A stretch of DNA of 64,000 nt from Nocardioides sp. CFH 31398 (GTDB lineage Bacteria > Actinomycetota > Actinomycetes > Propionibacteriales > Nocardioidaceae), in contig NZ_JAKUHT010000011.1 in NCBI RefSeq assembly GCF_022436705.1, positions 1 to 64,000 of the forward strand, written 5' to 3'. How positions within the stretch are numbered: the first letter of the stretch is position 1; each line of letters starts with the position of its first letter. Positions 14,042 through 63,902 of the stretch are shown piece by piece. Below the pieces are notes generated by a model that was not told the origin of the DNA, did no database searches, and saw nothing but the letters and a program-made list of their open reading frames with translations. The translations under genes and the position numbers were made by a program.

Positions 14042-14105
14042 GCCGTTTCTGCCGAAACGGCGCGAGGACGTCGCGTCAGGACGCCGATTCGGCAGAAACG
14101 GCGTC
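14042..14105. repeat. Palindromic repeat family, composite pair A
   Basis: Unit A1 (14042-14062) is GCCGTTTC-TGCC-GAAACGGC. Unit A2 (14080-14105) is a second palindrome with a GATTCGG arm facing a GAAACGG arm. The same two-unit layout recurs at 41244-41310 and 57540-57602. A2 supplies the last codons of the deformylase gene, and the invariant GTCAGGAC preceding A2 supplies its stop codon. Confidence 0.85.
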
Positions 14106-31850: not shown

Positions 31851-34190
<2,340 letters not shown>

Positions 34191-41199: not shown

Positions 41200-41310
41200 G
41201 GTCGGTCGGGCCGGTCGGTCGGGCCGGTCGGTCGGTGCCGGCAGCACGCCGTTTCCGCCGAATCGGTGCCGTTACGGCGCGCGGCGACGCCGATTCGGCA
41301 GAAACGGCGC
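41200..41310. repeat. 13-nt tandem repeat and palindromic repeat family, composite pair B
   Basis: 41200-41239 holds about three copies of GGTCGGTCGGGCC. Then come palindrome B1 (41244-41269; arms GCCGTTTCC and GAATCGGTGC) and B2 (41286-41310; a GATTCGG arm facing GAAACGGCG). The spacing and order match pairs A and C. The gap separates uppP from convergent corA. Confidence 0.85.
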
Positions 41311-44585: not shown

Positions 44586-45824
44586 ATGCGTTCGTGGTCC
44601 TCGCCGTCGGTGCCCGCCCTCGACGTCGCGGGACCGCCGGTGGTCCTGCACGACGTGGCGACCGGCCGTCGTCGCACCACCGAGCCCGACGGCCCGGCGC
44701 GGCTCTACGTCTGCGGGATCACGCCGTACGACGCCACCCACATCGGTCACGCGGCGACCTACGTCGCCTTCGACCTGCTCGTGCGGGCCTGGCGCAACGC
44801 CGGCCACGAGGTCGTCTACGTCCAGAACGTCACCGACGTCGACGACCCGCTGCTCGAGCGCGCCACCGCGGTCGGCACCGACTGGCGGGCGCTCGCCGAG
44901 CGGGAGACCGAGCTGTTCCGCGAGGACATGACCGCCCTGCGCGTGATGGCCCCCGACCACTTCGTCGGCGCGGTCGAGTCGATCCCGCTGGTCGAGGACC
45001 TCATCGCCGAGCTCGAGGCGCGCGGGACGACGTACAGGGTGGACGACGACCTGTACTTCTCGGTCACCTCCGACCCGGACTTCGGCGCCGTGTCCGGCTG
45101 GAGCCGCGACGAGATGCTCCGGGTCTACCCCGAGCGCGGCGGCGACCCCGACCGCCCGGGCAAGAAGGACCCGCTCGACTGCGTGGTGTGGCGTGCCGAG
45201 CGCCCCGACGAGCCGGCCTGGGACTCCCGCTTCGGCCGCGGCCGCCCCGGCTGGCACATCGAGTGCACCGCGATCGCCCGCGAGCACCTCGGCGGATCCT
45301 TCGACGTCCAGGGCGGCGGCTCCGACCTCGTCTTCCCGCACCACGAGATGTGCGCCTCCGAGGCCCACGCGGCGACCCCGGGGACGCCGTTCGCGCAGAC
45401 CTACGCCCACGCCGGGATGGTGGCCTTCGACGGCGAGAAGATGTCGAAGTCGAAGGGCAACCTCGTCTTCGTCTCCGCCCTGCGCCACGCCGAGGTCGAC
45501 CCCATGGCCGTGCGGCTGCGGCTGCTCCGCGAGCACTACCGCTCCGACTGGGAGTGGACCGACGCCGACCTGTTCACCGCCGTCGACCAGCTCGACACCT
45601 GGCGCCGCGCCGTCGCCGTCGGCTCCGGCGCCCCCTCCGAGCCCGTCGTCGCCGGCGTCCTCGCCGCCCTCGCCGACGACCTCGACGCCCCCACCGCCGT
45701 CGCCATCGTCGACCGCTGGGCCGCCGACACCCTCGGCGTCTCCGGCCTGGCCGACACCTCCGACCGCCACGCAGGCGACGCCGTCAGCGCCGTCGTCGAC
45801 GCGGCCCTCGGCGTCCGGCTGTAG
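44586..45824 (+). CDS. mshC: Cysteine--1-D-myo-inosityl 2-amino-2-deoxy-alpha-D-glucopyranoside ligase (mycothiol synthesis)
   Basis: 412 residues. It joins Cys to GlcN-Ins, the third step of mycothiol synthesis, using ATP. Class I tRNA-synthetase-like fold: zinc Cys43 ([15 protein letters not shown] with the HIGH-like THIGH 51-55), WHIECTAIA, the second zinc site, and KMSKS (285-289). The short length compared with CysS and the absence of an anticodon domain favour MshC. TAGGCT ends 7 nt before the ATG. It shows the host uses mycothiol. Confidence 0.94.
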
Positions 45825-45845
45825 GTCCACCCGGGTCCGTCGTCG

Positions 45846-46073
45846 GCGCCGTTTCGTCACGAACGGCGGCCAGTTCGACGGCGGCGGCGCCGTTTCGCAC
45901 GAAACGGCGTCGGAAGGACCGGCCGAGGAAGACGGCGGAGGATCCCCGCGCCGGTCGCGCTGAGATCCTCCGTCGAGGCCGTTCTGCCGGCGCAGGGTTG
46001 AGGCGGACGCGCCGTTTCGCACGAAACGGCGCGCTGCGGGACGTCGTGCACGGCGTTTCTGCAGAAACGGCGC
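45846..46073. repeat. Cluster D of four palindromic repeat units
   Basis: D1 45846-45870 (GCGCCGTTTCGTC / ACGAACGGCGGC), D2 45886-45911, D3 46009-46032 (both with CGCCGTTTCG facing CGAAACGGCG) and D4 46051-46073 (GGCGTTTCTG / CAGAAACGGC) occupy the gap between convergent mshC and the PAC2 gene. A terminator-like element (45937-45975) sits in the middle. This is the densest cluster of the family in the window. Confidence 0.88.
45937..45975. terminator. Terminator-like hairpin, copy 2 of a 39-nt element
   Basis: 33 of 39 positions match the element after sugE (1213-1251), including the invariant GATCCTCCGTCG end. Substitutions in the stem are partly uncompensated here, and the stem GGATC/GATCC plus GCGC/GCGC is retained. 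It lies between convergent genes, like copy 1. Confidence 0.65.
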
Positions 46074-46096
46074 GCACCCCCGCCGCCCGGACGACC

Positions 46097-46942
46097 TCAG
46101 TCGCTGTCGCGCCGCTTCAGGTACCGCTCGAACTCGCGCGCGATGGCCTCGCCGGAGGCCTCGGGGAGGTCGGTGGTGTCGCGGGCCTCCTCGAGGGCCT
46201 TGACGTACTCGGCGACGTCCTCGTCCTCCTCGGCGAGCTCGTCGACGCCGCGCTCCCAGGCGCGGGACTCCTCGGGCAGGTCGCCGAGGGGGACCGAGAC
46301 CTCGAGCAGGTCCTCCACGTGGCCGAGCAGCGCCAGGGTCGCCTTGGGGCACGGCGGCTGCGCGACGTAGTGGGGGACGGCGGCCCAGTAGGAGACGTTG
46401 GGGATGTCGAGGCGGCCGCAGGCGTCGGCGAACACCCCGACGATCCCGGTCGGACCCTCGTACGTCGACGGCTCGACCTTGAGCCGGTCGAGCAGCTCGG
46501 GCTCGGTCGCGGTCCCCGTCACCGGCACCGGGCGGGTGTGGGGGGTGTCGGCGAGCAGGGCGCCGAGGGTGATGACCAGGGAGCCGCCCAGCTCGTCGCA
46601 GGCCGCCAGCAGCTCGGCGCAGAACTGCCGCCACCGCATGTTCGGCTCGATCCCGCGCAGCAGGATGACGTCGCGGTGCAGGTCGGGCGGCGAGGCGATG
46701 GCGATCTGGGTGCTCGGCCAGGTGATCTGGCGGTGGCCCGCCGGATCGGTCCCGACCAGGGGCCGGTGCATCTGGAAGTCGTAGAAGTCCTCCGGGTCGA
46801 TGGCTCCGACCACGCGGGCGTCCCAGGCCCTGATGAGGTGGTCCACCACGCCCGACGCGGCGTCCGCGGCGTCGTTCCAGCCCTCGAACGCGGCGATCAC
46901 CACGGGGTCGACCAGCTCGCCGACGTCCTCGATCTCGATCAC
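46097..46942 (-). CDS. PAC2-family protein
   Basis: 281 residues. The PAC2 (proteasome assembly chaperone 2-like) fold shows VVIAAFEGWNDAADAAS near the start, GIEPNMRWRQF, LGALLADTPHTRPVPVTGTA and a helical C-terminal extension. Bacterial members are common in actinobacteria and of unknown role. A link to the proteasome genes 15 kb away is only suggestive. TAGGCT ends 6 nt before the GTG and GGAGGA lies in between, so both leaderless and Shine-Dalgarno starts are possible. Confidence 0.88.
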   Translation of the reverse strand: MIEIEDVGELVDPVVIAAFEGWNDAADAASGVVDHLIRAWDARVVGAIDPEDFYDFQMHRPLVGTDPAGHRQITWPSTQIAIASPPDLHRDVILLRGIEPNMRWRQFCAELLAACDELGGSLVITLGALLADTPHTRPVPVTGTATEPELLDRLKVEPSTYEGPTGIVGVFADACGRLDIPNVSYWAAVPHYVAQPPCPKATLALLGHVEDLLEVSVPLGDLPEESRAWERGVDELAEEDEDVAEYVKALEEARDTTDLPEASGEAIAREFERYLKRRDSD

Positions 46943-47030
46943 TCCTCCAGCCTAGGCGGAGCGCGGACGCCGCAGGAGGAGCCGTCCGCCCGCCGTTCAC
47001 GATTACGTCACCCCGCGGGCCGGTGGGATC

Positions 47031-50789
<3,759 letters not shown>

Positions 50790-50794
50790 GCCCG

Positions 50795-51487
50795 ATGAAC
50801 GAGCCCGGCCCGGGGAGGGCCCGCGCCGTCCTGTGGGACATGGACGGCACCCTGGTCGACACCGAGCCCGCCTGGATCGCCGCGGAGCACGCGCTCGTGA
50901 CCGAGCACGGCGGCACGTGGACCCACGAGCACGCGATGGCGCTGGTGGGCGCGGACCTGCTGGACGCCGGCGCCTACCTGCGCGAGCACGGGGGAGTGGA
51001 CCTGACCCCGCACGAGATCGTCGAGGAGCTCCTCGACCGCGTGGTCGGCGTCGTCACCGCCGACATCCCCTGGCGGCCCGGCGCCCGTGACCTGCTCGCC
51101 GCCGTCCGGGAGGCCGGCGTCCCCTGCGCCCTGGTGACGATGTCGTGGGAGCGGTTCGCCGCCCCCGTCGTCGCCGCGCTCCCGCCCGGCACGTTCGACG
51201 CCGTCGTCACCGGCGACGCCGTACGACGCGGCAAGCCGCACCCCGACCCGTACCTGCGCGGCGCCGAGCTCCTCGGCGTCGACCCCACCGACTGCGTCGC
51301 CGTCGAGGACTCACCCACAGGCGCAGCCAGCGCCGCCGCCGCCGGCTGCGCCACCCTCGTCGTCCCCCACCACGTGCCCGTCGAGCCCGCGGCGGGCCTG
51401 GTGTTCGCCGATTCGCTCGAAACGGTGACGACCGACCACCTGCTCGGGCTCGCCCCGCGCTCCCCGGAGTCGCTCACCCGATCGTGA
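50795..51487 (+). CDS. HAD-family hydrolase (phosphatase)
   Basis: 230 residues. Motif I DMDGTLVDTE with nucleophile Asp15 and Asp17, motif II VTMSWERF, motif III Lys in RRGKPHPDPYL and motif IV AVEDSPTGAASA. The helical cap (about 25-85) is that of beta-phosphoglucomutase-like phosphatases. The start follows the metH stop by 5 nt (a GTG at 50786 would overlap it), so it is co-expressed. A degenerate match to the palindromic repeat lies in its 3' end (51407-51427). Confidence 0.9.
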   Translation: MNEPGPGRARAVLWDMDGTLVDTEPAWIAAEHALVTEHGGTWTHEHAMALVGADLLDAGAYLREHGGVDLTPHEIVEELLDRVVGVVTADIPWRPGARDLLAAVREAGVPCALVTMSWERFAAPVVAALPPGTFDAVVTGDAVRRGKPHPDPYLRGAELLGVDPTDCVAVEDSPTGAASAAAAGCATLVVPHHVPVEPAAGLVFADSLETVTTDHLLGLAPRSPESLTRS

Positions 51488-51521
51488 GCCGATCGTGACC
51501 TCGGTTCGGGCCGTTCAGGCG

Positions 51522-51550
51522 TGACCCGGCACGCGGGCGCGGACTAGATT
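51522..51550 (+). promoter_or_regulatory. Promoter of the peptide ABC transporter operon
   Basis: TGACCC (51522-51527) and TAGATT (51545-51550) are spaced by 17 bases, as for a primary-sigma promoter. A leader of roughly 45-50 nt then precedes the GTG at 51605 with AAGAGG. Just upstream is a direct repeat of GATCGTGA around the previous stop codon. Confidence 0.5.
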
Positions 51551-51604
51551 CCCGGCAGTCTGCTCGGGCGGTCCGCGCCCGTGCGCCTGGTCAAGAGGTG
51601 GCTC

Positions 51605-53260
51605 GTGGGTCTCAGCAGGAAAGTACGTCTGGCAACGGTGGGTCTCGCGACCGCCGCGGTGGTGCTCACCGGGTGCGCCGAGAGCGAGCGCGACTCGTCC
51701 TCCGGCGACGGCGGCGGGGAGGGTGGCGGCGGCACGTTCCGCTTCGCGGCGTCGGCCGAGCCCGTGACGCTCGACCCGTTCTTCGCCTCCGACGGTGAGA
51801 CGTTCCGCGTGTCGCGGCAGATCTTCGAGGGCCTCGTCGGTGTCGAGCCCGGCACCGCCGACCCGGCCCCGACCGGCCTGGCCACCGAGTGGGAGTCGTC
51901 CGAGGACGGCCTGACCCACACCTTCACCCTGCGTGAGGGCGTGACCTTCCACGACGGCAGCGACTTCAACGCCGAGGCGGTCTGCTTCAACTTCGACCGC
52001 TGGTACAACCTGCCCGAGTCCTCGCAGGTCGAGTCGCTCGCCTACTACTACGGCGCCCTCTTCGGTGGTTTCGCGACCGGCGACAACGCCGACAACGCGA
52101 TCTACGACTCGTGCGAGACCAACGGCGAGTACGAGGCCACGATCACCCTCACCGAGCCGTTCTCGGGCTTCATCGCCGCGCTGTCGCTGCCGGCGTTCGC
52201 CATGCAGAGCCCCACCGCGCTGCAGGAGTACCAGGACGACGGGGCCCAGAACCCGACGACCACGGAGTACGCCACCTCCCGCCCCAGCGGCACCGGGCCG
52301 TTCCAGCTCGAGGAGTGGAACCAGGGCACCGACGTCACGCTGACGGCGTACGACGACTACTGGGGCGAGCCCTCCACCATCGACGAGGCCGTCGTCGTCC
52401 CGATCGCGGAGCCCCGCGGTCGCGCCGACGCCCTGCGCAACGACGAGATCGACGGGTACGACCTCGTCGGCCCGGCCGACATCTCCGGCCTCGAGGACGA
52501 GGGCTTCCAGGTCGTCAACCGCGACCCGTTCAACGTCCTCTACCTCGGCTTCAACCAGGCGCAGGCCCCGTTCGACGACCTCCGCGTCCGCCAGGCGATC
52601 GCGTACGCGATCGACAAGGAGGAGGTCGTCAGCGCCTCCCTGCCCGAGGGCAGCGAGGTCGCCATCGAGTTCATGCCGCCGTCGGTGAGCGGCTGGGCGG
52701 ACGACGTCGAGACGTACGACTACGACCCGGACCGCGCCCGCCAGCTGCTCGAGCAGGCCGGCGCCGCGGGCGAGACGATCGAGTTCAACTACCCGACGGA
52801 CGTCAGCCGTCCCTACATGCCCTCGCCCGAGGACACCTTCAACGTCATCCGCACGCAGCTGGAGGAGGTCGGCCTCGAGGTCGAGCCCGTCGCGGACCGC
52901 TGGGACCCGGACTACCTGAACAAGATCCAGGGCTCCGAGAACCACGGCATCCACCTGCTCGGCTGGACCGGTGACTACAACGACACCGACAACTTCATCG
53001 GCCAGTTCTTCGGCTCGGAGAAGCCCGAGTGGGGCTTCAACGACCCGCAGCTGTTCCAGGGCCTGCGCGAGGCGCGCGGCGAGCCGTCCGTGGAGGACGC
53101 CGCCCCGCTGTACGAGGACCTGAACCGCGAGGTCATGGAGCTGCTCCCGGGCGTGCCGCTGGCCCACCCGGTGCCGTCCCTGGCGTTCGGCCCGGGCGTC
53201 GGCGGCTACGAGGCCAGCCCCGTCCAGGACGAGGTCTGGAACACCGTCACCCTCGACTGA
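51605..53260 (+). CDS. ABC transporter substrate-binding lipoprotein (peptide/nickel type)
   Basis: 551 residues from a GTG with AAGAGG 6 nt upstream; a GTG at 51581 is possible. Type II signal peptide with lipobox LTGC followed by a Ser/Gly-rich linker, then the family 5 (DppA/OppA) fold: GTFRFAASAEPVTLDPFFAS, TFTLREGVTFHDGSDFNAEAV and VRQAIAYAIDKEEVV. It is the extracytoplasmic receptor of the transporter encoded by the next four genes. The ligand may be an oligopeptide. Confidence 0.93.
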   Translation: MGLSRKVRLATVGLATAAVVLTGCAESERDSSSGDGGGEGGGGTFRFAASAEPVTLDPFFASDGETFRVSRQIFEGLVGVEPGTADPAPTGLATEWESSEDGLTHTFTLREGVTFHDGSDFNAEAVCFNFDRWYNLPESSQVESLAYYYGALFGGFATGDNADNAIYDSCETNGEYEATITLTEPFSGFIAALSLPAFAMQSPTALQEYQDDGAQNPTTTEYATSRPSGTGPFQLEEWNQGTDVTLTAYDDYWGEPSTIDEAVVVPIAEPRGRADALRNDEIDGYDLVGPADISGLEDEGFQVVNRDPFNVLYLGFNQAQAPFDDLRVRQAIAYAIDKEEVVSASLPEGSEVAIEFMPPSVSGWADDVETYDYDPDRARQLLEQAGAAGETIEFNYPTDVSRPYMPSPEDTFNVIRTQLEEVGLEVEPVADRWDPDYLNKIQGSENHGIHLLGWTGDYNDTDNFIGQFFGSEKPEWGFNDPQLFQGLREARGEPSVEDAAPLYEDLNREVMELLPGVPLAHPVPSLAFGPGVGGYEASPVQDEVWNTVTLD

Positions 53261-53266
53261 GCACCC

Positions 53267-53302
53267 CGCGCCCGTCCCCGGATCCGTCCGGGGACGGGCG
53301 CG
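53267..53302 (+). terminator. Stem-loop between binding-protein and permease genes
   Basis: A perfect 16-nt stem (53267-53282 with 53287-53302) and a TCCG tetraloop lie between the receptor gene and the first permease gene. This position is typical of attenuating or mRNA-stabilising stem-loops that keep the receptor in excess over the membrane proteins. Confidence 0.75.
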
Positions 53303-53341
53303 GTCACGTCTGCCCACCCCCGCCCGAAAGGCTCTCGACGC

Positions 53342-54346
53342 ATGCTCCGCTTCGTGCTGCGGCGCCTGGGACTCCTCGTCCCGGTGCTGATCGGCCTGTC
53401 GGTGCTGCTGTTCGCCTGGGTCCGCGCGCTGCCCGGTGACCCCGCCCGCGCGCTGCTCGGCGAGCGCGCCACCCCCGAGGCCGTCGCCCGGGTCCGTGAG
53501 GCCTACGGCTTCGACGACCCCCTGTGGCAGCAGTACTTCCGCTACGTCGGCTCCCTGCTGCGCGGCGACTTCGGCTCCTCGGTCCGCGACAACCGCCCGG
53601 TGGTCGACACCTTCCTCGAGAAGTTCCCCGCCACCGCCGAGCTCGCGATCGCCGCGCTCCTCATCGCCGTCGTCGTCGGGGTGCCGCTCGGCTACCTCGC
53701 CGCGCGCAACCAGGGCCGGCTGCTCGACACCGCCGTCGTGTCCGGCTCGCTGCTCGGCGTCGCGACCCCCGTCTTCTTCCTCGCCATCCTGCTGAAGCTG
53801 GTCTTCGCGACGTGGCTGGGCTGGCTGCCGTCGTCGTTGAGGCAGGACGTGACGATCGACGCCACCCACGTCACGAACTTCTACGTCCTCGACGGGATAC
53901 TCACGCGGGAGTGGGACGCCGCGGTGAACGCGGTCGCCCACCTCATCCTGCCCAGCATCGCGCTGGCGACCATCCCGCTGGCGATCATCGTCCGCATCAC
54001 CCGCGCCTCCGTGGCGGAGGTGATGAACGAGGACTTCGTCCGGACCGCCGAGTCCAAGGGGCTCTCGCGGCGCGTCGTGTCCCGACGCCACGTGCTGCGC
54101 AACGCGCTGCTGCCCGTCGTGACCACCATCGGCCTGCAGGCCGGCCTGCTGTTCTCCGGCGCCGTCCTCACCGAGACGGTGTTCGGCCTGCAGGGCATCG
54201 GTCAGTACCTCTTCGAGGCCATCGGCCGCCGCGACTACCCCGTGCTGCAGGGCTACATCCTGTTCATCGCCATCATCTACTCGCTCATCAACCTGTTGGT
54301 CGACCTCGCCTACGGCGTCATCGACCCGAGGGTGAGGGTCTCGTGA
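53342..54346 (+). CDS. ABC transporter permease, DppB/OppB type
   Basis: 334 residues with six transmembrane helices. FVLRRLGLLVPVLIGLSVLLFAW at the start, the large periplasmic loop after helix 1, and the EAA loop in RTAESKGLSRRVVSRRHVLRNALLPVVT, which docks with the ATPases (split: RTAESKGLSRRVV then RRHVLRNALLPVV). Its stop overlaps the next GTG, coupling the two permeases. Confidence 0.93.
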   Translation: MLRFVLRRLGLLVPVLIGLSVLLFAWVRALPGDPARALLGERATPEAVARVREAYGFDDPLWQQYFRYVGSLLRGDFGSSVRDNRPVVDTFLEKFPATAELAIAALLIAVVVGVPLGYLAARNQGRLLDTAVVSGSLLGVATPVFFLAILLKLVFATWLGWLPSSLRQDVTIDATHVTNFYVLDGILTREWDAAVNAVAHLILPSIALATIPLAIIVRITRASVAEVMNEDFVRTAESKGLSRRVVSRRHVLRNALLPVVTTIGLQAGLLFSGAVLTETVFGLQGIGQYLFEAIGRRDYPVLQGYILFIAIIYSLINLLVDLAYGVIDPRVRVS

Positions 54347-55332
54347 CCATCCCGCTCCCACCGTCCGGCGGCGGTGCCGTTTCGCCCGAATCGGCGCCCG
54401 GGACCCCCGGCGGCGCCACCGGCGCCCCCGACACCACCGCCGAGGACCGTGGCGTCAGCCTGTGGCGCGGCGCCTTCCGCCGGTTGCGGCGCAACCCCAC
54501 CGCCATCCTCGGCGCGGTCATCGTGCTCGCCTTCATCGCGGTCGCCGTCCTCGCCCCGCTGCTGACCAGCTACGAGCCCGGCGCCGCCCAGGACGCCGGC
54601 GAGATCACCCCGTCCAGCGTCCCCGGGCCGTCGCCCGACCACTGGCTCGGGCTCGACAGCTTCGGCTCCGACCTGTGGACCCAGCTGGTGTACGGCGCCC
54701 GCCAGTCGCTCGTCTACGGCGTCATCTCGACCGCCATCGGCCTCGTGGTGGGCGCCGCCCTGGGCGCCCTGGCCGGTGGCTTCGGTGCCGTCGGCGGCCG
54801 CGCCGGGCAGTGGGTCGACACCGCCGTGATGCGGATCGTCGACCTCTGGCTGTCGATCCCCAGCCTGCTGCTCGCCGTCAGCGTCGCCGCGATCCTCACC
54901 CAGTCGGCGTACGCGGTCATGATCGCCATCGGTGCCGCCCAGGTGCCGATCTTCGCGCGACTGCTGCGCGGGTCGATGCTCGCGCAGGGCCGCTCGGACT
55001 ACGTCCTCGCCGCAGGCGCACTCGGGCTGCGCAAGCGGCGCATCGTCATGAGCCACGTCCTGCCGAACTCGATCGGCCCGACGATCGTGCAGGCCACGCT
55101 GAACCTCGCGACCGCGATCATCGAGGTCGCGGCGCTGTCCTACCTGGGTCTCGGCACCGCGGACCCCGCGGTCGCCGAGTGGGGCCGCATGCTGGTCGCC
55201 GCCCAGGACCGCTTCGACGAGTCGCCGCAGCTCGCCATCTACCCCGGCGTGGCCATCGCGATCACCGCGCTCGGGTTCACCCTGTTCGGCGAGGCCCTGC
55301 GCGAGGCGCTCGACCCGAGGAGCCGCCGATGA
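54343..55332 (+). CDS. ABC transporter permease, DppC/OppC type, with repeat-encoded N-terminus
   Basis: 329 residues. N-terminal DppC signature LWRGAFRRLRRNPTAILG, six helices and the EAA loop AAGALGLRKRRIVMSHVLPN. Its GTG overlaps the previous stop. The first 40 residues are a Pro/Gly/Ala-rich stretch that includes GAVSPESAP, encoded by a palindromic repeat unit (54376-54397). Related proteins begin near the SLWRGAF motif, so this part looks added. Confidence 0.92.
   Translation: MTIPLPPSGGGAVSPESAPGTPGGATGAPDTTAEDRGVSLWRGAFRRLRRNPTAILGAVIVLAFIAVAVLAPLLTSYEPGAAQDAGEITPSSVPGPSPDHWLGLDSFGSDLWTQLVYGARQSLVYGVISTAIGLVVGAALGALAGGFGAVGGRAGQWVDTAVMRIVDLWLSIPSLLLAVSVAAILTQSAYAVMIAIGAAQVPIFARLLRGSMLAQGRSDYVLAAGALGLRKRRIVMSHVLPNSIGPTIVQATLNLATAIIEVAALSYLGLGTADPAVAEWGRMLVAAQDRFDESPQLAIYPGVAIAITALGFTLFGEALREALDPRSRR
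54376..54397. repeat. Palindromic repeat unit E inside the DppC-like gene
   Basis: GCCGTTTCG and CGAATCGGCGC arms around CC lie in frame near the permease N-terminus. The unit is read as A-V-S-P-E-S-A, the frame used in other coding copies. Confidence 0.82.
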
Positions 55333-56372
55333 GCACCCCCGCACCCGAGAAGACCACCGACACGACGCGGGACGACGTCCCGCTGCTGTCGGTGCGGAAC
55401 CTGTCGGTGACCTTCGGGCTCCGGGGTCAACGCGCCGTCCGCGCCGTCGACGAGGTCTCCTTCGACATCCGCCCCGGCCAGCACGTCGGACTGGTGGGGG
55501 AGTCCGGCAGCGGCAAGTCCGTCACCTCGCTCGCCCTCATGGGCCTGCTGCCCAAGCGGGGGGTGAAGGTCGCCGGCGAGGCGCTCTACCGGGGCCAGGA
55601 CCTGCTGACCCGGGACCGCAAGGCCATGGCCGGCCTGCGCGGCCGCGAGATCGCCATGGTGTTCCAGGACCCGATGACGTCCCTGAACCCCGTCGTCCGG
55701 ATCGGGGTCCAGCTGACCGAGGTCATCACCCGGCACACCGACCTGGGCAAGTCGGCGTCGCAGGACCGCGCCCGTGAGCTCCTCGCCCAGGTCGGCATCC
55801 CCGACCCCGGACGACGCCTGCGGGAGTACCCCCACCAGCTCTCCGGCGGGATGCGGCAGCGCGTGCTCATCGCGATCGCCCTGGCGTGCCGGCCGCGCCT
55901 GCTCATCGCCGACGAGCCGACCACCGCCCTCGACGTCACCATCCAGGCCCAGGTGCTCGAGGTGCTCAAGGACCTCGTCGCCGAGACCGACGCCGCCCTG
56001 CTGATGATCACCCACGACCTCGGCGTCGTCGCCGGGCTCTGCGACGAGGTGAACGTCATGTACTCCGGCCGCATCGTCGAGGCCGCCACCCGCGAGAAGC
56101 TGTTCGCCCGGCCCCGCCACCCGTACACCGGCGGCCTCCTGGCCAGCATCCCGCGGCTCGACACCCCACGCGGGCGGCCCCTGACCCCCATCCCGGGCTC
56201 ACCGACCCAGACCCTGCCGTGGTCCACCGGTTGCGCGTTCGCCCCTCGGTGCGCCAACGCCGCCGACGACTGCCGCACCACGGCCCCGACCCTCGAGGCG
56301 GACGACCACGGGGAGCTCCGCTGCTTCCACCCCCTGGACGCCGCCCGCACCCCCTCCGGGAGCGGCTCATGA
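55329..56372 (+). CDS. ABC transporter ATP-binding protein, DppD/OppD type
   Basis: 347 residues, ATG overlapping the previous stop. Walker [10 protein letters not shown]-loop [11 protein letters not shown], signature LSGGMRQRV, Walker [13 protein letters not shown] and switch His in ITHDLGVV. The C-terminal oligopeptide-ABC extension has a four-cysteine cluster ([18 protein letters not shown]), typical of DppD and thought to bind iron-sulfur. It pairs with the second ATPase. Confidence 0.94.
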
Positions 56373-57532
56373 GCGACCCCACCGCCCGCCCCACCCCCGG
56401 GCCCGCCGCGGCCGGGGGACCGGCCCCCGAGGACGCCGTTTCCGCCGAAACGGCGTCGGACGCCGGCGCCGGCGGCACCGATTCGGCACGAACGGCGGCC
56501 ACGCCCGACGTCCTGCTCCGCATCCGCGACCTCGAGGTGCACTTCCCGATCCGCGACGGACTCATCCTCAATCGCACGGTCGGAGCGGTCCGGGCCGTCG
56601 ACGGCGTCGACCTCGACGTCCCGCGCGGCGGCACGGTCGGCCTGGTCGGCGAGTCCGGGTGCGGCAAGTCCACCCTCGGCCGGGCCGTCCTGCGCCTGGT
56701 GGAGCCCACGGGCGGCAGGGTCGAGTTCGACGGGGTCGACGTCGCGTCGCTCAAGGGCGAGGCGCTGCGGGCGAAGCGGCAGGACATGCAGATGGTCTTC
56801 CAGGACCCGCTGGCCAGCCTGAACCCCCGGCAGAGCGTCGAGACGTTGCTGACCGAGCCGTTGCGGGCGCACCGCCGCAAGGTCTCCGACACCCGTGTCC
56901 GCGAGCTGCTCGACCAGGTCGGCCTGCCGTCGTCCGCGGCCGCGAAGTACCCGCACGAGTTCTCCGGCGGGCAGCGCCAGCGCATCGGCATCGCCCGCGC
57001 GCTCGCGTTGGAACCGTCGTTCATCATCGCCGACGAGCCCGTCTCGGCGCTCGACGTCTCGATCCAGGCGCAGGTGCTCAACCTGCTGGAGGACCTCCAG
57101 GAGTCCCTCGGCCTGACCTACCTCGTCATCGCCCACGACCTAGCTGTCGTCCGCCACGTCTCCGACCTGGTGGCCGTGATGTACCTCGGTGGCATCGTGG
57201 AGCGGGCGCCCTCCGACGACCTGTACGCCGAGCCGCTGCACCCGTACACGAAGGCCCTCATGTCGTCGGTGCCGGTCCCGGACCCCGTCGTCGAGGCCAC
57301 CCGGGAGCGGATCATCCTGACCGGCGACCTGCCGTCGCCGGCGGACCCGCCGACCGGTTGCCGCTTCCACACCCGGTGCCCCTTCCGGCAGGCGGAGCGC
57401 TGCGACAGCGAGCGACCCGTCCTGCGCGAGCTCCGCCCCGGGCACGCCGTCGCCTGTCACTTCGCCGAGGAGATCCTCGCGGGCACCATCACGCCGCACG
57501 AGGTCACGCCCGAGGAGGCCGCGGAGGTGTGA
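56369..57532 (+). CDS. ABC transporter ATP-binding protein, DppF/OppF type, with repeat-encoded N-terminus
   Basis: 387 residues, ATG overlapping the previous stop. Walker [20 protein letters not shown], signature [15 protein letters not shown], Walker [21 protein letters not shown] and the C-terminal cysteine cluster [15 protein letters not shown]. About 48 extra N-terminal residues precede the usual [13 protein letters not shown]. They include DAVSAETAS and GTDSARTAA, encoded by two palindromic repeat units (56432-56500), so the extension appears created by repeat insertion. Confidence 0.94.
56432..56500. repeat. Palindromic repeat pair F inside the DppF-like gene
   Basis: F1 (56432-56457) has perfect 11-nt arms GACGCCGTTTC and GAAACGGCGTC around CGCC. 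F2 (56473-56500) has CACCGATTCGG facing CGAACGGCGG. Both are in frame and add a disordered Ala/Ser/Thr-rich linker before the ATPase domain. Confidence 0.85.
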
Positions 57533-57539
57533 GGGACCC

Positions 57540-57602
57540 GCCGTTCCTGCCGAACCGGCGCCCCGACGGGCCGTCAGGACGCCGATTCGGCGGAAACGGC
57601 GT
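57540..57602. repeat. Palindromic repeat family, composite pair C
   Basis: C1 (57540-57560; GCCGTTCC and GAACCGGC arms) and C2 (57578-57602; GACGCCGATTCGG and GAAACGGCGT) follow the ABC operon stop. The segment from GTCAGGAC through C2 matches pair A at nearly every base, so the conserved element is larger than the palindromes themselves. Confidence 0.86.
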
Positions 57603-57639
57603 GCAGCGGGCGCGCCCGCCCAGGGCCGTCGAAGCGCGC

Positions 57640-58500
57640 TCAGGCCGGGTCGGCGGCGGGAGCGTCCGGCTGTTCGGCGGGGGCCGGGAGGGGCGGCGGG
57701 GTGCCGCCGTACGCCGGGCACAGGGCCTGGTGGGCGCACCAGTCGCACAGGCGTCCGGGGCTCGGCTGAAAGTCGCCGGTGGCCTCGGCGTGGCGGATGG
57801 CCGCCCAGATGGCCTCGACCTTGCGCTCGGTGGCGAGCAGGTCCTGCTCGTCGGGGACGTAGCGCAGCACCTCGCCGTTGCCCAGGTAGATCAGCTGCAG
57901 CATCGCCGGGACCCGGCCGCGGGTCCGCCACAGCACCAGGGCGTAGAACTTCAGCTGGAACAGCGCCTTCGCTTCGAACAGCTCGCTCGGGGCCCGCCCC
58001 GTCTTGTAGTCCACGATCCGCACCAGACCGTCGGGGGAGACGTCGACGCGGTCGACGAAACCGCGTAGCAGGAGCCGCGACTCGAGCACCGTCTCGACGT
58101 ACAGCTCGCGGTCGGCCGGCTCGAGCCGACGCGGGTCCTCGAGGGTGAAGTAGGTGTCCAGCGCGTCCGCGCAGGTGCCCAGCCACCGCTCGAGCGGCTC
58201 GGCCACCGCGGTCGCCGCCTCCGGGTCGGCGTCGCACACGGTCTCCCACGCCGGCCGGAGGAGGCCGCGGGCCCGTTCCGGCGTCCGGTCGGCCGCCGGG
58301 AGGTCGAACAGCTCCTCCAGCACCCGGTGCACCACCGTGCCGCGCACCGCCTCCGGCGACGACGGCTCGGGGAGCCGGTCGATCGTGCGGAACCGGTACA
58401 GCAGCGGGCAGCTCGTGAAGTCCCCGGCCCGGCTCGGTGACAGCGAGCCCAGCACCTCCACGCCGTCCACCGGCGTCGAGAGCAGCTCCGTCGGACCCAT
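57640..58500 (-). CDS. RecB-like PD-(D/E)XK exonuclease family protein
   Basis: 286 residues. Nuclease core RGFVDRVDVSPDG with the Asp, then IVDYKTGRAP (the DxK motif), and QLKFYALVL. A Cys early (TSCPLLYRF) plus three Cys at the end (LCDWCAHQALC) can form the iron-sulfur cluster known from AddB, Cas4 and related nucleases. No cas genes are nearby, and the position next to the site-2 protease is conserved in actinobacteria. TACTGT ends 6 nt before the ATG. Confidence 0.9.
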   Translation of the reverse strand: MGPTELLSTPVDGVEVLGSLSPSRAGDFTSCPLLYRFRTIDRLPEPSSPEAVRGTVVHRVLEELFDLPAADRTPERARGLLRPAWETVCDADPEAATAVAEPLERWLGTCADALDTYFTLEDPRRLEPADRELYVETVLESRLLLRGFVDRVDVSPDGLVRIVDYKTGRAPSELFEAKALFQLKFYALVLWRTRGRVPAMLQLIYLGNGEVLRYVPDEQDLLATERKVEAIWAAIRHAEATGDFQPSPGRLCDWCAHQALCPAYGGTPPPLPAPAEQPDAPAADPA

Positions 58501-58549
58501 GCCCCGACAGTAGGACAGCCCGCCGACAGTCCCCGGCTAGGCTCGAGGA

Positions 58550-59722
58550 GTGCCGGAGAACCGTCCCCACCCGCCCGGGACGATCCGGCTCGGCCGGATC
58601 GCCGGCAGCGACGTGCTCGTCTCCGGGTCCTGGTTCCTCGTCGCCGGTCTGATCGCCGTCCTGGTCGCGCCCCGCGCGGAGGTCGTGGCCCCCGGACTGG
58701 GCGTGTGGGCGTACGCCGTGGGCTTCGGCTTCGCCGTGCTGCTCTACGGCTCGGTCCTGCTGCACGAGGCGTCCCATGCGGTGGTGGCGCGGATGTTCGG
58801 GTTCCGGGTCAGCACCATCACCCTCCACTTCCTCGGCGGCGCGACCGCGATCGAGGGCGAGGCCCGCCGTCCCCGCCAGGAGTTCTGGATCGCCGTCGTC
58901 GGCCCCCTCACCTCCATCGGGGTGGGGCTCGCGTCGCTGGCGCTGCTGCCCGTCACGCCCGACGGTCTGCCCCGCCTCGCGGTCGAGGCACTGGCCGGGG
59001 CCAACCTGCTGGTCGGCGTCCTCAACCTCGTCCCCGGACTACCCCTGGACGGCGGCCGCGTGCTGAAGTCCGCCGTCTGGTCCCTCAGCGGGGACCAGCA
59101 CCGCGCCACCCTCGTCGCCGGGTGGGGTGGCCGGGTCGTCGCCGTCCTCGTCCTGCTGTGGCCGGTCGCGCTCGAGCTCGGTCTCGGTCGCAGGCCGCAG
59201 CTCGTGGACTACGCCGTCGCCTTCATCGTCGCGGTGTTCCTGTGGACCGGCGCCGGCGCGTCCATCGCCTCGGCCCGCATCCGGCGCCGCCTCCCCGGCC
59301 TCGCCGTCCGCGGTCTGGCGCGGCGCTCGCTCTCGGTCCCCGCGGACCTCCCCGTCTCCGAGGCCGTACGGCGGGCGCACGAGGCCGAGGCCGGCGGCAT
59401 CGTGACCCTCGGCCCGGACGGCGTCCCCGCCGGTCTGGTCAACGAGGCCGCACTGGCCGCCGTCCCGGAGGAGCGGCGTCCGTGGATGCCGATCTCGACC
59501 GTCGCCCGCAGCCTGTCCGAGCGCACCGCGCTGCCCGCCGACCTGGCCGGGGAGGGACTGATCGCGGCGCTGGGCCGCTCGCCCGCGCCGGAGTACCTCG
59601 TGGTCGAGGACGACGGACGCCTGCACGGCGTCCTCGTCACCGCCGACGTCGAACGTGCGTTCCGTCGCACCGACCGCCACCCCACCACCTCCCCGGGCAG
59701 GACGGCGGCGCCCGGCCACTAG
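58550..59722 (+). CDS. Site-2-type membrane metalloprotease (M50) with CBS domains
   Basis: 390 residues. Several transmembrane helices hold the zinc motif HEASH (His72, Glu73, His76) and the second metal motif PLDGGR. The C-terminal 150 residues form a CBS pair (LSVPADLPVSEAVRRAHEAEA onward). M50B proteases cut transmembrane substrates such as anti-sigma factors. TAGGCT ends 6 nt before the GTG, with GAGGA between. Confidence 0.9.
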   Translation: MPENRPHPPGTIRLGRIAGSDVLVSGSWFLVAGLIAVLVAPRAEVVAPGLGVWAYAVGFGFAVLLYGSVLLHEASHAVVARMFGFRVSTITLHFLGGATAIEGEARRPRQEFWIAVVGPLTSIGVGLASLALLPVTPDGLPRLAVEALAGANLLVGVLNLVPGLPLDGGRVLKSAVWSLSGDQHRATLVAGWGGRVVAVLVLLWPVALELGLGRRPQLVDYAVAFIVAVFLWTGAGASIASARIRRRLPGLAVRGLARRSLSVPADLPVSEAVRRAHEAEAGGIVTLGPDGVPAGLVNEAALAAVPEERRPWMPISTVARSLSERTALPADLAGEGLIAALGRSPAPEYLVVEDDGRLHGVLVTADVERAFRRTDRHPTTSPGRTAAPGH

Positions 59723-59732
59723 CCTGCTGCGC

Positions 59733-60743
59733 ATGCCCGAGCAGCCCGTCGACGTCCCCGATCCCACCGAGGACCCGGTCCGCTCCTCCAGCCCCGAGCC
59801 CGGCCTCGAGGCCGCGCCCGCCTGGGCCGGCGTACGTCGTGGCCCGCTGCAGGCGGGGGAGTGGATCCGCCTGGTCGACACCAAGGGCCGGCGCCACAAC
59901 TTCGAGCTGACCCCCGGCAAGCGGTTCTTCTCCAACCGGGGTCACATCGAGCACGACGACCTCATCGGCCGCGAGGAGGGCTTCGCGGTCACGTCGTCGG
60001 TGGGCGGCGAGTACGTCGTGTTCCGCCCGCTGCTCAGCGAGTTCGTGGTGTCCATGCCGCGCGGCGCGGCCGTGGTCTACCCGAAGGACAGCGCCCAGAT
60101 TGTGGCCATGATGGACGTGTTCCCCGGCGCGCACGTCGTCGAGGCCGGCGTCGGCTCCGGGGCGCTGACCTGCTCGCTGCTGCGGGCCGTCGGACCCGAC
60201 GGCAGGGTCGTGTCGTGGGAGCGGCGCGAGGAGTTCGCCGACGTGGCCCGCCGCAACGTCACCCAGTTCTTCGGCGGCGACCACCCCGCGTGGGACCTCC
60301 GCGTCGGCGACCTCGCCGAGGGGCTCCGCGAGTCGGGGACCCGCGCGGACCGCGTCGTCCTGGACATGCTCGCGCCGTGGGAGTGCGTCGACGAGGTGGC
60401 CGACGCGCTGCTGCCGGGCGGGATTGTGTGCGCATACGTCGCCACCACCACCCAGCTGTCCCGCATCACCGAGACGCTGCGCGCCCACGGCGGCTTCACC
60501 GAGCCACGGGCCTGGGAGTCGCTGGTGCGTGACTGGCACGTCGAGGGCCTCGCCGTCCGCCCCGGCCACTCCATGACCGGGCACACGGCCTTCCTGGTCA
60601 CCGCCCGCCGGATGGCCCCCGGCGAGCGCGCGCCCGCCAAGAAGCGTCGTCCCGCCCCCGGCGCCTACGGCGAGGACTACTCCGGCCCCCGCCCGCCCGA
60701 CCTCGCCCCCCAGGTCACCACCGAGGCGTACGACCCGCGCTGA
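59733..60743 (+). CDS. trmI: tRNA (adenine-58-N1)-methyltransferase TrmI
   Basis: 336 residues. An N-terminal beta-barrel (GPLQAGEWIRLVDTKGRRH) leads into the Rossmann SAM domain with VVEAGVGSGALTC, DGRVVSWERREEF and LDMLAPWECVDEV. The actinobacterial C-terminal tail is basic then Pro-rich (APAKKRRPAPGAYGEDYSG). It methylates A58 of tRNAs as a tetramer. It lies just before the proteasome ATPase, the order known in mycobacteria. TAGCCT ends 7 nt before the ATG. Confidence 0.93.
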   Translation: MPEQPVDVPDPTEDPVRSSSPEPGLEAAPAWAGVRRGPLQAGEWIRLVDTKGRRHNFELTPGKRFFSNRGHIEHDDLIGREEGFAVTSSVGGEYVVFRPLLSEFVVSMPRGAAVVYPKDSAQIVAMMDVFPGAHVVEAGVGSGALTCSLLRAVGPDGRVVSWERREEFADVARRNVTQFFGGDHPAWDLRVGDLAEGLRESGTRADRVVLDMLAPWECVDEVADALLPGGIVCAYVATTTQLSRITETLRAHGGFTEPRAWESLVRDWHVEGLAVRPGHSMTGHTAFLVTARRMAPGERAPAKKRRPAPGAYGEDYSGPRPPDLAPQVTTEAYDPR

Positions 60744-60799
60744 CCCTCGCTCCACCCGGTCGCCGGCCGTCGCCGTCACCCCGGCGTTGCTCCGGAGCT

Positions 60800-60865
60800 G
60801 CGCCGATTCGTGCGAAACGGCGGCCCGGACGGCCCGGACGACGCCGTTTCTGCCGAAACGGTGTT
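60800..60865. repeat. Palindromic repeat pair G upstream of mpa
   Basis: G1 (60800-60824; GCGCCGATTCG and CGAAACGGCGGC around TG) and G2 (60840-60865; GACGCCGTTTC and GAAACGGTGT around TGCC) lie between trmI and the mpa promoter. The remainder of the gap to 60966 is G/C-rich with no gene. Confidence 0.85.
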
Positions 60866-60966
60866 GCTTCGGCCGCGTCCTGGGCACCTCCAGCACCCCG
60901 CCCGACACCGCGCCGGCGCCGGGTGCGCGCCGGCCGTGTGACGAGTTGGTGACGACCCGGCGTGTG

Positions 60967-61008
60967 AGACGTCCAACGTCTTGGCAACCGGGGATGGGGC
61001 AGTAATGT
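60967..61008 (+). promoter_or_regulatory. mpa promoter with operator on the -35 box
   Basis: TTGGCA (60981-60986) and TAATGT (61003-61008) with a 16-base spacer form the best primary-sigma promoter in the window. The palindrome AGACGT-CCA-ACGTCT (60967-60981) abuts and overlaps the -35 by one base, so a regulator bound there would compete with polymerase or contact it. A 33-nt leader with GGAGG then leads to the GTG. Confidence 0.65.
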
Positions 61009-61041
61009 CCAGAGCAAGCGGACCTACCGGAGGTGGTCGTC

Positions 61042-62793
61042 GTGCCCGAGCAGCCTGAAGCCCAGACCGCGGCGGAGCTGCGCCGTCAGGTCGCCTACCT
61101 CGAGGCCGAGGTGGGGGACCTGCGCCGCCGCCAGTCGTCCGGCCGCACGTCGGGGTCGACGTCCGGTCTCGAGGCGCGGTTGGCCGACACCGAGCGCTCG
61201 CTGGCGTCGGTGTCCTCCCAGAACGAGCGACTGGCCTCCACCCTGCGCGAGGCGCGGGACCAGATCACGAAGCTGAAGGAGGAGGTCGACCGGCTCGCAC
61301 AGCCGCCGGCCGGCTTCGGCACCGTGCTGGACCGCAACGACGACGACACCGTCGACGTGTTCACCGGCGGCCGCAAGCTCCGGGTGAACGTCAGCCCCAA
61401 CGTGGAGCTCGACGACCTGCGCCGCGGCCAGGAGGTCCTGCTCAACGAGGCCCTGAACATCGTGGCCGCGTTCCACTACGAGCAGGTCGGCGAGGTCGTC
61501 ATGCTCAAGGAGGCGCTGGCCGACGGCGAGCGGGTCCTGGTCATCGCGAACGCCGACGAGGAGCGCGTCGTCCGGTTGGCCGAGCCGTTGCGCGGTCCCG
61601 ACGTGACGCTGCGCGCCGGGGACTCGCTGCTGCTCGACACCCGCTCCGGCTACGTCTACGAGGTCGTCCCGAAGTCCGAGGTCGAGGAGCTGGTCCTCGA
61701 GGAGGTCCCGGACATCGCCTACGAGTCCATCGGTGGTCTCGTCGGTCAGATCGAGCAGATCCGGGACGCCGTCGAGCTGCCCTACCTGCACCCGGAGATG
61801 TTCGTCGAGCACGAGCTCAAGCCGCCGAAGGGCGTCCTGCTGTACGGCCCGCCCGGCTGCGGCAAGACCCTCATCGCGAAGGCCGTCGCGAACAGCCTCG
61901 CGAAGAAGGTGGCCGCCCGCACGGGCCAGGAGGGCAAGTCCTACTTCCTGAACATCAAGGGCCCCGAGCTGCTCAACAAGTACGTCGGGGAGACCGAGCG
62001 CCACATCCGGCTCGTGTTCCAGCGGGCCCGGGAGAAGGCGTCGATGGGCACGCCCGTCATCGTGTTCTTCGACGAGATGGACTCGCTGTTCCGCACCCGC
62101 GGCTCCGGGGTCTCCTCGGACGTCGAGAACACGATCGTCCCGCAGCTGCTGAGCGAGATCGACGGCGTCGAGACGCTGGAGAACGTCCTGGTCATCGGTG
62201 CCTCGAACCGCGAGGACATGATCGACCCCGCGATCCTGCGCCCCGGCCGCCTCGACGTGAAGATCAAGATCGAGCGCCCGGACGCCGAGTCGGCACGCGA
62301 CATCTTCTCGAAGTACCTGACCCCCCGCCTCCCGCTGCACGCCGACGACCTGGGTGAGTTCGGCGGCGACCGCGTCGCGTGCGTCGACGGCATGATCCGG
62401 GCGACCGTCGAGCGGATGTACACCGAGACTGACGAGAACCGGTTCCTCGAGGTCACCTACGCCAACGGGGACAAGGAGATCCTGTACTTCAAGGACTTCA
62501 ACTCCGGCGCGATGATCCAGAACATCGTCGACCGGGCGAAGAAGATGGCGATCAAGGACCTCCTCGACCACGATCAGAAGGGCCTGCGGGTCCAGCACCT
62601 GCTCCAGGCCTGCGTCGACGAGTTCAAGGAGAACGAGGACCTCCCGAACACGACCAACCCCGACGACTGGGCCCGCATCTCCGGCAAGAAGGGCGAGCGG
62701 ATCGTCTTCATCCGCACCCTCATCACCGGCAAGCAGGGCACCGAGCCCGGCCGCTCCATCGACACGGTCTCCAACACCGGCCAGTACCTCTGA
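61042..62793 (+). CDS. mpa: Proteasome-activating AAA ATPase (Mpa/ARC)
   Basis: 583 residues, GTG with GGAGG 8 nt upstream. An N-terminal coiled coil (about 5-88) that captures Pup is followed by OB domains (about 90-210). The AAA module has Walker A GPPGCGKT (269-276) and Walker [10 protein letters not shown] (339-347). The C-terminus ends GQYL, the motif that docks into the 20S core. The ring unfolds pupylated proteins for the proteasome. Genes for Pup and the core are not in the window; a possible dop begins at 63991. Confidence 0.96.
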
Positions 62794-62816
62794 GTCCGGC
62801 GCCGGGCGGCCCCGGC

Positions 62817-62883
62817 GGCGCCGTTTCCGCGTAAACGGCAGTCGCCGGGCGCCCCGGCACGCCGTTCCGCACGAATCGGTGCC
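62817..62883. repeat. Palindromic repeat pair H
   Basis: H1 (62817-62841; GCGCCGTTTCC and GTAAACGGC) and H2 (62856-62883; GGCACGCCGTTCC and GAATCGGTGCC) lie between convergent mpa and the sulfotransferase gene. H1 has decayed arms. The gap to 62964 shows no gene. Confidence 0.82.
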
Positions 62884-62964
62884 CCGGGGGCTGCCCCGAG
62901 GGGCCGCGCCTCGGTCGGTAGGGCCTCGAGGCGCCGGCCGGAGGTCGTTCGGCCGTCGAGCCGC

Positions 62965-63861
62965 TCAGTAGGAGTGTGGGCGGGCCATCGTCGAGCGGAC
63001 GGCGTCGACGTCGAAGTCCTCGCCCAGCCATCGGAACAGACCCTCGAGCACCTGCGGGTCGGCCACCCAGTCGTCGTAGTGCACCCGGTACGCCGCGTCG
63101 CCGAGCTCGTCGGCCAGGGCGAGCAGGTCTGCCTCCGTGCGCTCGAGCAGGGCCCGCGACTCCGGGTCCTTGCCCCACCACTTGCTGACGGAGACCGCGT
63201 CGAGGTTGCGGGTGTTGACGATGAACCGGGCGCCGGGGAACACCTCCCGCAGCCACGCGACGTACCCCGGAGTGTCCGGCTCGTCCCAGCGGATCTCCTT
63301 GAAACCGGTCACCCGTGTGCCCGGCTCGGGACGCAGCAGCGAGTCGAGCGCCAGCTTGCGCTCGGCGAGGCGGGTGCGCCGGCTGGGCAGCTGATCCATG
63401 CCGAAGAACGGGTGGGTGGCGTCGTTGCCGTCCTCGATGCCCTTGCGGCGACGCTCGCGACGCTGGTTGCGGCGAACCTTGTGCACGGCTGCGTCGAACG
63501 CCCAGACGTGCCGCAGCGTCTGCCGATTCTCACCACGGATCAAGTAGCCCGGGATGGCGTTGAGGATGCCCTGGAGCAGGGTCGAACCACTGCGGCCGTA
63601 CGTGACGATGAAGACGTAGCCGAGGTCGTCGCGGACCTCCAGGCGCCCCACCTTGGCCCGCAGGGTCCGGGTCCGCTTCTCCAGCCGGGCCACCCGGGCG
63701 CGTGCCCGCTCGCGCTGCTGCTCGGCGGCCTCGGCGCGCGCGCGGGTCCGGGTCAGCTCCTCGCGGAGGGCCTCGACCTCGCTGCGACGGGCAGGGACCA
63801 CGCCACGCAGACCGCTGCGGGTGCGCCGCGCGACGCGCCGCGGCAGGTCGTCTCGTGTCAC
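62965..63861 (-). CDS. Sulfotransferase-family protein with N-terminal coiled coil
   Basis: 298 residues, GTG start without a clear ribosome-binding site. A basic N-terminus and a predicted coiled coil (about 28-76, REELTRTRARAEAAEQQRE) precede a PAPS-type sulfotransferase fold. The 5'-phosphosulfate loop is FIVTYGRSGSTLLQ (about 84-97), and a KEIRW...FIVNTRNLDAV segment holds the 3'-phosphate Arg. The acceptor is unknown. It interrupts the usual mpa-to-dop neighbourhood and is bracketed by palindromic repeats (62817-62883 and 63879-63902). Confidence 0.82.
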   Translation of the reverse strand: MTRDDLPRRVARRTRSGLRGVVPARRSEVEALREELTRTRARAEAAEQQRERARARVARLEKRTRTLRAKVGRLEVRDDLGYVFIVTYGRSGSTLLQGILNAIPGYLIRGENRQTLRHVWAFDAAVHKVRRNQRRERRRKGIEDGNDATHPFFGMDQLPSRRTRLAERKLALDSLLRPEPGTRVTGFKEIRWDEPDTPGYVAWLREVFPGARFIVNTRNLDAVSVSKWWGKDPESRALLERTEADLLALADELGDAAYRVHYDDWVADPQVLEGLFRWLGEDFDVDAVRSTMARPHSY

Positions 63862-63878: not shown

Positions 63879-63902
63879 GCGCCGTTCGTGCCGAATCGGC
63901 GC
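63879..63902. repeat. Palindromic repeat unit I
   Basis: GCGCCGTTCG-TGC-CGAATCGGCGC, a single unit 17 nt before the sulfotransferase start codon. Confidence 0.8.

Follow-up and report, generated by a model that had tools for sequence, protein, structure and literature searches.

The window, by which we mean the whole stretch of 64,000 nucleotides analysed here, represents positions 1-64000 of contig C41 in a genome of 4.42 Mb and 49 contigs (G000), and carries eight pairs of a 20-bp dyad unit with the consensus GCCG(A/T)TTC-N4-GAA(A/T)CGGC, as well as single units (Table 1). Three of these pairs, those beginning at 14042, 41248 and 57540 (A, B and C), had been noticed in a preliminary description and are real, with the exact limits tabulated; their spacer, given there as 17-20 nt, is 21 nt in all three, and with eight pairs in the window against three noted the element was understated. 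The string GTCAGGAC, reported before the second unit, is indeed present in pairs A and C but is no general feature.

Searched with the pattern GCCGWTTC-N4-GAAWCGGC at up to two mismatches, the whole 4.42 Mb genome yields 31 matches, where the reversed pattern yields three. Of the 31, 24 fall on C41, a contig of 242 kb, between 14,042 and 90,799, the rest being on C15 (3), C30 (3) and C35 (1). Over 124 kb of C41 the count is 24 units to no control hit, and the abundance of units on this contig is far above chance. Among the 10 pairs of this 124-kb stretch, five match better as inverted repeats and one as direct repeats; the other four tie because each unit is nearly palindromic by itself.

Table 1. 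Paired and single dyad units in the window (positions as in C41)
Feature	Position	Units	Start-to-start	Context and conservation
Composite pair	14042..14102	14042-14061, 14083-14102	41 bp	Convergent gene ends; orthologous pair in G224
Composite pair	41248..41308	41248, 41289	41 bp	Convergent intergenic; slot also filled in G224, G024, G009
Composite pair	45848..45908	45848, 45889	41 bp	mshC-PAC2 convergent intergenic; slot filled in 8/9 species
Second composite pair	46011..46071	46011, 46052	41 bp	mshC-PAC2 intergenic
Unit-like match, weaker	51407..51426			Inside predicted gene 50795-51487; G224 20/20 identical, flanks 58/80
Single unit	54376..54395			In 5' coding part of predicted gene 54343-55332; same place kept in G224
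Composite pair	56435..56496	56435, 56477	42 bp	In 5' coding part of predicted gene 56369-57532
Composite pair	57540..57600	57540, 57581	41 bp	Between 3' ends of predicted 56369-57532 (+) and 57640-58500 (-)
Composite pair	60802..60862	60802, 60843	41 bp	Slot filled in 5/9 species
Composite pair	62820..62880	62820, 62861	41 bp	Convergent intergenic
Single unit	63881..63900			Divergent intergenic, 62965-63801 (-) vs gene from contig position 64009 (+)

A second genome, G224, carries the same pairs in the same chromosomal order as G000; the ortholog of the 57540 pair is found there at C4:177927/177968, and the first unit of the 56435 pair is conserved. The second unit of the 14042 pair overlaps the 3' end of a predicted minus-strand gene (14076-14705), and the genes flanking the 60802 pair are presumably trmI-like and ARC-like. 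The weaker match at 51407-51426 may be ordinary coding sequence. Units at C41:74704-74765, 54376 and 56435-56496 fall in weakly conserved coding parts and give AVSAETA-like or ARRFGGNGD-like peptides, as if the coding sequence there had accepted the element.

Spacing, letters and conservation of the pairs

Exact units of the window type occur in three of 215 genomes of the genus Nocardioides (G000, G224 and, as one isolated match, G011), and the letters of the unit vary among species groups, with GCCGTTTC, GCGGTTTG and GTCGTTTGG types. When 20 further members of the genus were searched de novo for paired palindromes, five yielded a GCGGTTTG-N4-CAAACCGC unit, again 41 bp apart, and relaxed and composite searches brought the carriers up to 10 of the 20, adding GTCGTTTGG, GGGGATTGG and GCGGAATGG types. 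The other 10 were counted as site-free, the recurring 41-bp pair not being found in them; at 15-16/20 composite matches five of these give scattered unrelated hits, and at 17/20 there are none in neighbouring stretches. The broader pattern GCSGTTTS-N4-SAAACSGC matches 43 of the 215 genomes, 36 of them at least twice. In the order, a pair pattern of the GTTTGGTC type, the only motif type scanned outside the genus, was met in 28 of 391 genomes (control 0), all in one of 40 genera, Nocardioides, and in no other genus.

The pairs were followed in regions of nine species, fetched around the neighbourhood of RecB and the gene called X below, which hold 204 units at up to two mismatches (control 1) and 7-18 pairs each. 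The 97 pairs assembled, with missing partners rescued at 41 and 42 bp only, are spaced at 41 bp in 91 cases, 42 in five and 40 in one; without rescue, neighbouring strong units no more than 60 bp apart (n=89) lie at 41 bp in 83 cases, at 42 in four, and at 40 and 58 in one each. The earlier view that the pair is the unit is borne out by this fixed distance, and orientation is not random either: when the second unit is compared with the first, the reverse complement gives the better fit in 73 of the 97 pairs and the direct reading in 16, with equal fit in eight. Most pairs are therefore 61-bp composite dyads. Seven of the 16 direct pairs come from G024, where seven of 12 pairs are better matched as direct, and in G010 the composite is symmetric although the individual units are not. 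A weak third dyad, CGGNCCG-like, may lie in the middle of the spacer; the consensus showing it pooled both orientations and is symmetric by construction. In some of the 21-nt spacers (pairs of G161 and G159, and the mshC-PAC2 pair of G062) the middle reads GGGAGCGCTCCC or nearly so, which we take to be the CebR operator palindrome of Streptomyces.

Units and spacers have fared very differently. In nine comparisons of orthologous pairs between G000 and G224 (two sharing one G224 pair, and the 42-bp one shifted by one base in its second half), unit identity is 27-36/40 and spacer identity 6-12/21. Within one genome, the mean identity of units is 0.77-0.96 and that of spacers 0.40-0.50 (0.33-0.49 over the inner 17 nt), with 0.23-0.34 for shuffled spacers. 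Positions also persist when the letters differ: species with different motifs share 63 syntenic slots, where 19.3 would be expected and the highest of 5000 shuffles gave 36. These shuffles hold the slot type fixed and do not model common descent, which is itself the point of the slot sharing: inherited sites changed their letters together. The slot between prcA and X is filled in 9/9 species. The distance between motifs tracks the distance between X proteins (Spearman 0.59), and also that between neutral genes (0.42). At paired positions, 191 changes are broken and 24 compensated at the level of the composite (22 kept as G-T), with 99 broken and four compensated within units (23 G-T). Changes are thus mostly uncompensated, and recognition as double-stranded DNA is therefore favoured over a hairpin. 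Judged by these sequence comparisons, the pattern points to the pairs being individually selected protein-binding sites that would have been altered together with a protein.

The setting of the 97 pairs, as assigned by a simple gene caller, is convergent intergenic in 47 (15.5 kb in total), tandem in 41 (69.3 kb), divergent in one (31.8 kb) and coding in eight. The gap between mshC and PAC2 measures 100-132 bp in five carriers, 255 bp in one and 616-656 bp in three; in site-free species it is 27, 55, 0 and 67 bp in four, and 354, 455 and 2713 bp in three. By eye, the site-free G030 (L105) has a different and longer repeat array in this slot.

Gene X and the position of the sites

X, a gene that evolves fast, lies just beyond the window (C41:67850-68812, 320 aa), between prcA and pafA. 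Orthologs occupy the same place in 12 of 12 site-bearing genomes (the nine scanned, together with G010, G008 and G018), and none was found between prcA and pafA in the nine of nine site-free genomes that show the locus, the tenth, G060, displaying none of these genes; lower-scoring relatives occur elsewhere in several site-free genomes. A profile search separates 62 genomes at 348 bits or more (two partial) from others at 308 or less, the cut for calling a genome X-positive being our choice between these values. By this measure X is present in 34 of the 36 genomes with at least two GCSGTTTS-N4-SAAACSGC matches, the exceptions being G077, which has 11 exact units and in which no X passes the E 1e-20 threshold, and G202, with X only as a 77-residue fragment at a contig end. 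In a draw from the order, all 28 genomes bearing GTTTGGTC-type pairs are X-positive against three of 92 pair-free ones, counts that include genomes of shared ancestry; these three (G000, G125 and G137) all carry other motif variants.

On a RecB-like tree of 30 genomes, where gain and loss of X are indistinguishable, the best tree has at least six changes of X state, three of them forced by well supported branches, and the system therefore seems dispensable. Three supported independent contrasts agree with the link between X and the sites, too few for significance (p 0.25); G078 and G004, with ambiguous site status, were left out of these contrasts, and most other site-free rows rest on pattern counts. 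X is itself flanked by units. Around the 30 best-scoring of the 62 X loci, the unit pattern is present on the upstream side at all 30, 29 times as a pair, and on the downstream side at 27, with nine other hits and two control hits over 117 kb, and a test of composite symmetry places a composite upstream of X in 24 of the 30. In G000 and G224 no downstream unit at X was found with their own motif.

The AlphaFold model of X (pLDDT 87.6, pTM 0.86) resembles an AbiEi-antitoxin-like fold joined to a Vsr/homing-endonuclease-like domain. Residues 1-174 match AbiEi (6y8q, Z 9.1, 159 aligned, rmsd 6.0), with Rv2827c (1zel) matching over a longer range at Z 6.8, below the safe level of the tool; residues 178-280 match I-Bth0305I (3r3p, Z 9.7), 3hrl (Z 9.3) and Vsr (1cw0, Z 8.2), and more weakly TnsA (Z 5.5-5.6). 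With Foldseek no match reached E 0.001; the top rows were a mitoribosomal protein of Toxoplasma (E 0.0028) and Rv2827c (1zel, E 0.013), R2 retrotransposon proteins ranking lower, and searching the sequences of solved structures produced no significant match. The N-terminus is short and no full winged helix was seen there. Pfam matches in the X family are weak (DUF559 in four of 12 members, AbiEi_1 in one of 12) and include no transposase for X, and the PADLOC AbiEi models match two and one of the 12, at best with 2e-5. The invariant residues E178, E182, D214, E225, D227, H231 and D240 would fit a putative EDxHD-type site, the residue assignment being our own. At a first, loose look the X profile gives about 28-83 candidates per listed genome, which suggests a large family of AbiEi/DUF559-like paralogs in the genus.

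Other candidate binders were set aside. The coiled-coil-like gene at 62965-63801, with a single unit upstream, matches a sulfotransferase family. The core geometry GTTTC-N4-GAAAC resembles that of parS; unlike the sites described here, three parS-like matches adjoin parB on contig C30. Of the 13 carriers tested, eight encode one ParB_N protein each and therefore offer no ParB/Noc paralog as a reader of the sites. As to a viral origin, viral contigs scanned for the GTTTGGTC type alone contain no exact pair of that type, and X has no PHROG match.

All 18 genomes scanned with a dif consensus at up to three mismatches have a dif-like site (control 0), three of them with two matches; in G071 a second match, with fewer mismatches, lies near ParB, and the match at 391 kb was used. 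Where the genome is complete or nearly so, the clusters are close to dif and roughly opposite ParB (G024, sites 977.6-1078.6 kb and dif 1000.3 kb; G076, 2118.7-2190.7 and 2139.6 kb; G036, 1967.1-2064.8 and 1969.5 kb; G077, 4501.5-4708.3 and 4572.8 kb). In G000 the single dif-like site is at C41:137790-137811, beyond the window, with two mismatches to an actinobacterial consensus, and the minimum of the cumulative GC skew over the 124 kb examined falls near C41:78 kb. The sites centre on X, which is 31-69 kb from the dif-like site, and 87 of the 97 pairs are nearer X than dif, a figure biased towards X by the fetching of regions around the X/RecB neighbourhood. A compact domain is not general across species: the sites listed for G128, G116, G123 and G014 range widely over the chromosome and do not cluster near X. 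Single pairs also lie far from the cluster in G000, G224, G076 and G036; no regulator gene was evident by eye beside those at G224 C1:572775, G224 C2:656755 and G000 C30:429569, and both of the G224 pairs lie between convergent genes.

Interpretation of the composite sites

The pairs form a family of paired-dyad sites that is under selection, has been rewritten in step across species, is tied to X and lies near the terminus in the species examined. The explanation that we favour is that they would be composite sites in double-stranded DNA, each made of two 20-bp dyads, mostly inverted and 41 bp (about four helical turns) apart; selection would keep each site, and the recognised letters would shift in step with a trans-acting protein. 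X is the most likely candidate for this protein. We infer that X binds the sites, gripping both halves of a composite with a dimer interaction, and that it represses its own gene through the composite upstream; bound to the 7-18 pairs around its gene, it may hold or mark a part of the chromosome next to dif, about 25-100 kb long. This model as a whole, with composite sites bound by X, autoregulation and segment marking beside dif, seems to us evenly poised between right and wrong.

Binding of X to the inverted repeats of its own promoter is plausible because paired units lie upstream of X in 29 of the 30 loci. AbiEi and Rv2827c are each described as binding their own promoters at paired inverted repeats of 23 bp, and AbiEi proteins as autoregulating (PMC7319586). 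A feature shared with X is that paired inverted repeats, each about 20 bp long, precede a gene whose product has the AbiEi fold. The repeats described for AbiEi are 3 bp apart and those for Rv2827c 13 bp, in the promoter (PMC7319586), whereas those described here are 21 nt apart and present at many places, and X has an additional Vsr-like domain. No DUF1814 toxin gene, the neighbour expected for a member of the AbiEi family, adjoins X, its flanks being prcA and pafA in the 12 genomes examined. The closest functional analogue is the MatP/matS system of the Ter macrodomain, where repeated short dyads are concentrated at the terminus, as ours are in the complete genomes G024, G076, G036 and G077, though with distant outliers in some genomes and with dispersal in four other species; here too they are probably bound by one protein. 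However, matS is given as a single 13-bp site with 23 copies over 800 kb (PMC3330122), whereas our sites are 20-bp dyads in pairs that in the nine species fall mostly inside some 100 kb, with X and not dif at the centre.

The chief rival is a mobile doublet of the REPIN kind, in which the composite would be a non-autonomous element copied by the nuclease-fold protein X in the role of a RAYT, and the clustering would reflect local spread from the X gene; we think this unlikely, though by no means negligible. A REPIN is described as a pair of REPs in inverted order that flank a spacer of diverse sequence, their distance being constant (71 bp for one class); REPINs are associated with a gene that is single-copy and passed on vertically, isolated REPs count as remnants, and compensatory changes are called common (PMC8049555, PMC3116915). 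Architecturally, REPIN/RAYT elements, or BIMEs, are the closest known system: both are doublets of short palindromes, mostly inverted and mostly extragenic, at a fixed distance around a diverse spacer, with species-specific letters and a tie to a single gene flanked by repeats. The BIME-type organisation suggested in the preliminary description holds to the extent that inverted order and a variable spacer make the doublet BIME/REPIN-like. Mobility would also suit the dispersed sites of G128, G116, G123 and G014, the single 41-bp pair among the 11 exact units of the X-less G077, where two units in one fetched stretch have no composite partner, the short mshC-PAC2 gaps of four site-free species (0-67 bp, against 100-656 bp in carriers, with 354-2713 bp in three other site-free species) and the presence of TnsA of Tn7 among the weaker fold matches to X (Z 5.5-5.6). 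Membership of the BIME class is nevertheless unsupported. Random extragenic spread was not what we found: 24 of the 31 sites of G000 are on the 242-kb contig, and the copies lie around one locus in nine species, with 7-18 pairs around the X gene and 87 of 97 pairs nearer X (under the biased sampling), being scattered in the four others just named. Orthologous positions outlast the change of motif between species, copies in one genome share their units (0.77-0.96) far more than their spacers, and compensatory changes are rare (24 against 191 broken). The linked protein, moreover, resembles AbiEi plus Vsr and has neither a tyrosine (HUH) transposase match nor any other transposase match in Pfam.

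An ordinary local regulon, in which the sites would be operators and X or another regulator would control the neighbouring genes (proteasome, mycothiol and others), is improbable. It would agree with the units found ahead of X at all 30 of the best-scoring loci and with the autoregulation described for AbiEi proteins (PMC7319586), but 47 of 97 pairs are convergent and one of 97 divergent, the reverse of what is expected of operators at promoters. That the elements serve at gene ends as RNA hairpins, or as terminators of transcription in both directions, is more improbable still: pairs strongly prefer the 3' ends of genes, the unit or composite could fold, and the site-free G070 has, by eye, a plain hairpin in its mshC-PAC2 gap, but uncompensated changes dominate, a stem pair is lost with the A/T exchange that position 5 of the unit tolerates, eight of 97 pairs lie inside predicted genes, a G+C-rich stem with a T run occurs at two sites in 45000-63500 (2.7 expected), neither of them at a unit, no Rfam family matches within 40000-64000, and terminators would not track X.

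Returning to the favoured explanation, composite sites read by X, it is possible, if doubtful, that they represent a class of chromosome-domain system not described before, in which a fusion of AbiEi-antitoxin-like and homing-endonuclease/Vsr-like parts would act with composite dyads as an actinobacterial organiser on the terminus side, its site alphabet having changed several times, along with the protein, while the chromosomal positions stayed fixed. The titles and abstract openings listed in searches of an open-access library describe no such sites, nor a site-specific terminus organiser in an actinobacterium, for which the present system would be a candidate. If X binds the sites, the genus offers a natural experiment on the joint change of specificity of a protein and dozens of sites, with positions retained. 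It would also suggest a possible role for AbiEi/DUF559/Vsr-like proteins, seemingly many in these genomes, and it bears on the function that REPINs and other doublet repeats serve in their hosts.

Two other features of the window may be recorded. Its six longest inverted repeats (arms 71-82% complementary) arise from the predicted long genes at 2900-5167 (+) and 31851-34085 (-), which from their N-terminal sequences we take to be two catalase-peroxidases. A 15-nt direct repeat array spans 17726-18231, where the gene caller gives a plus-strand gene; read by hand, the minus strand would encode a lysine/alanine/proline-rich (PAKKS-like) tail as in histone-like proteins.
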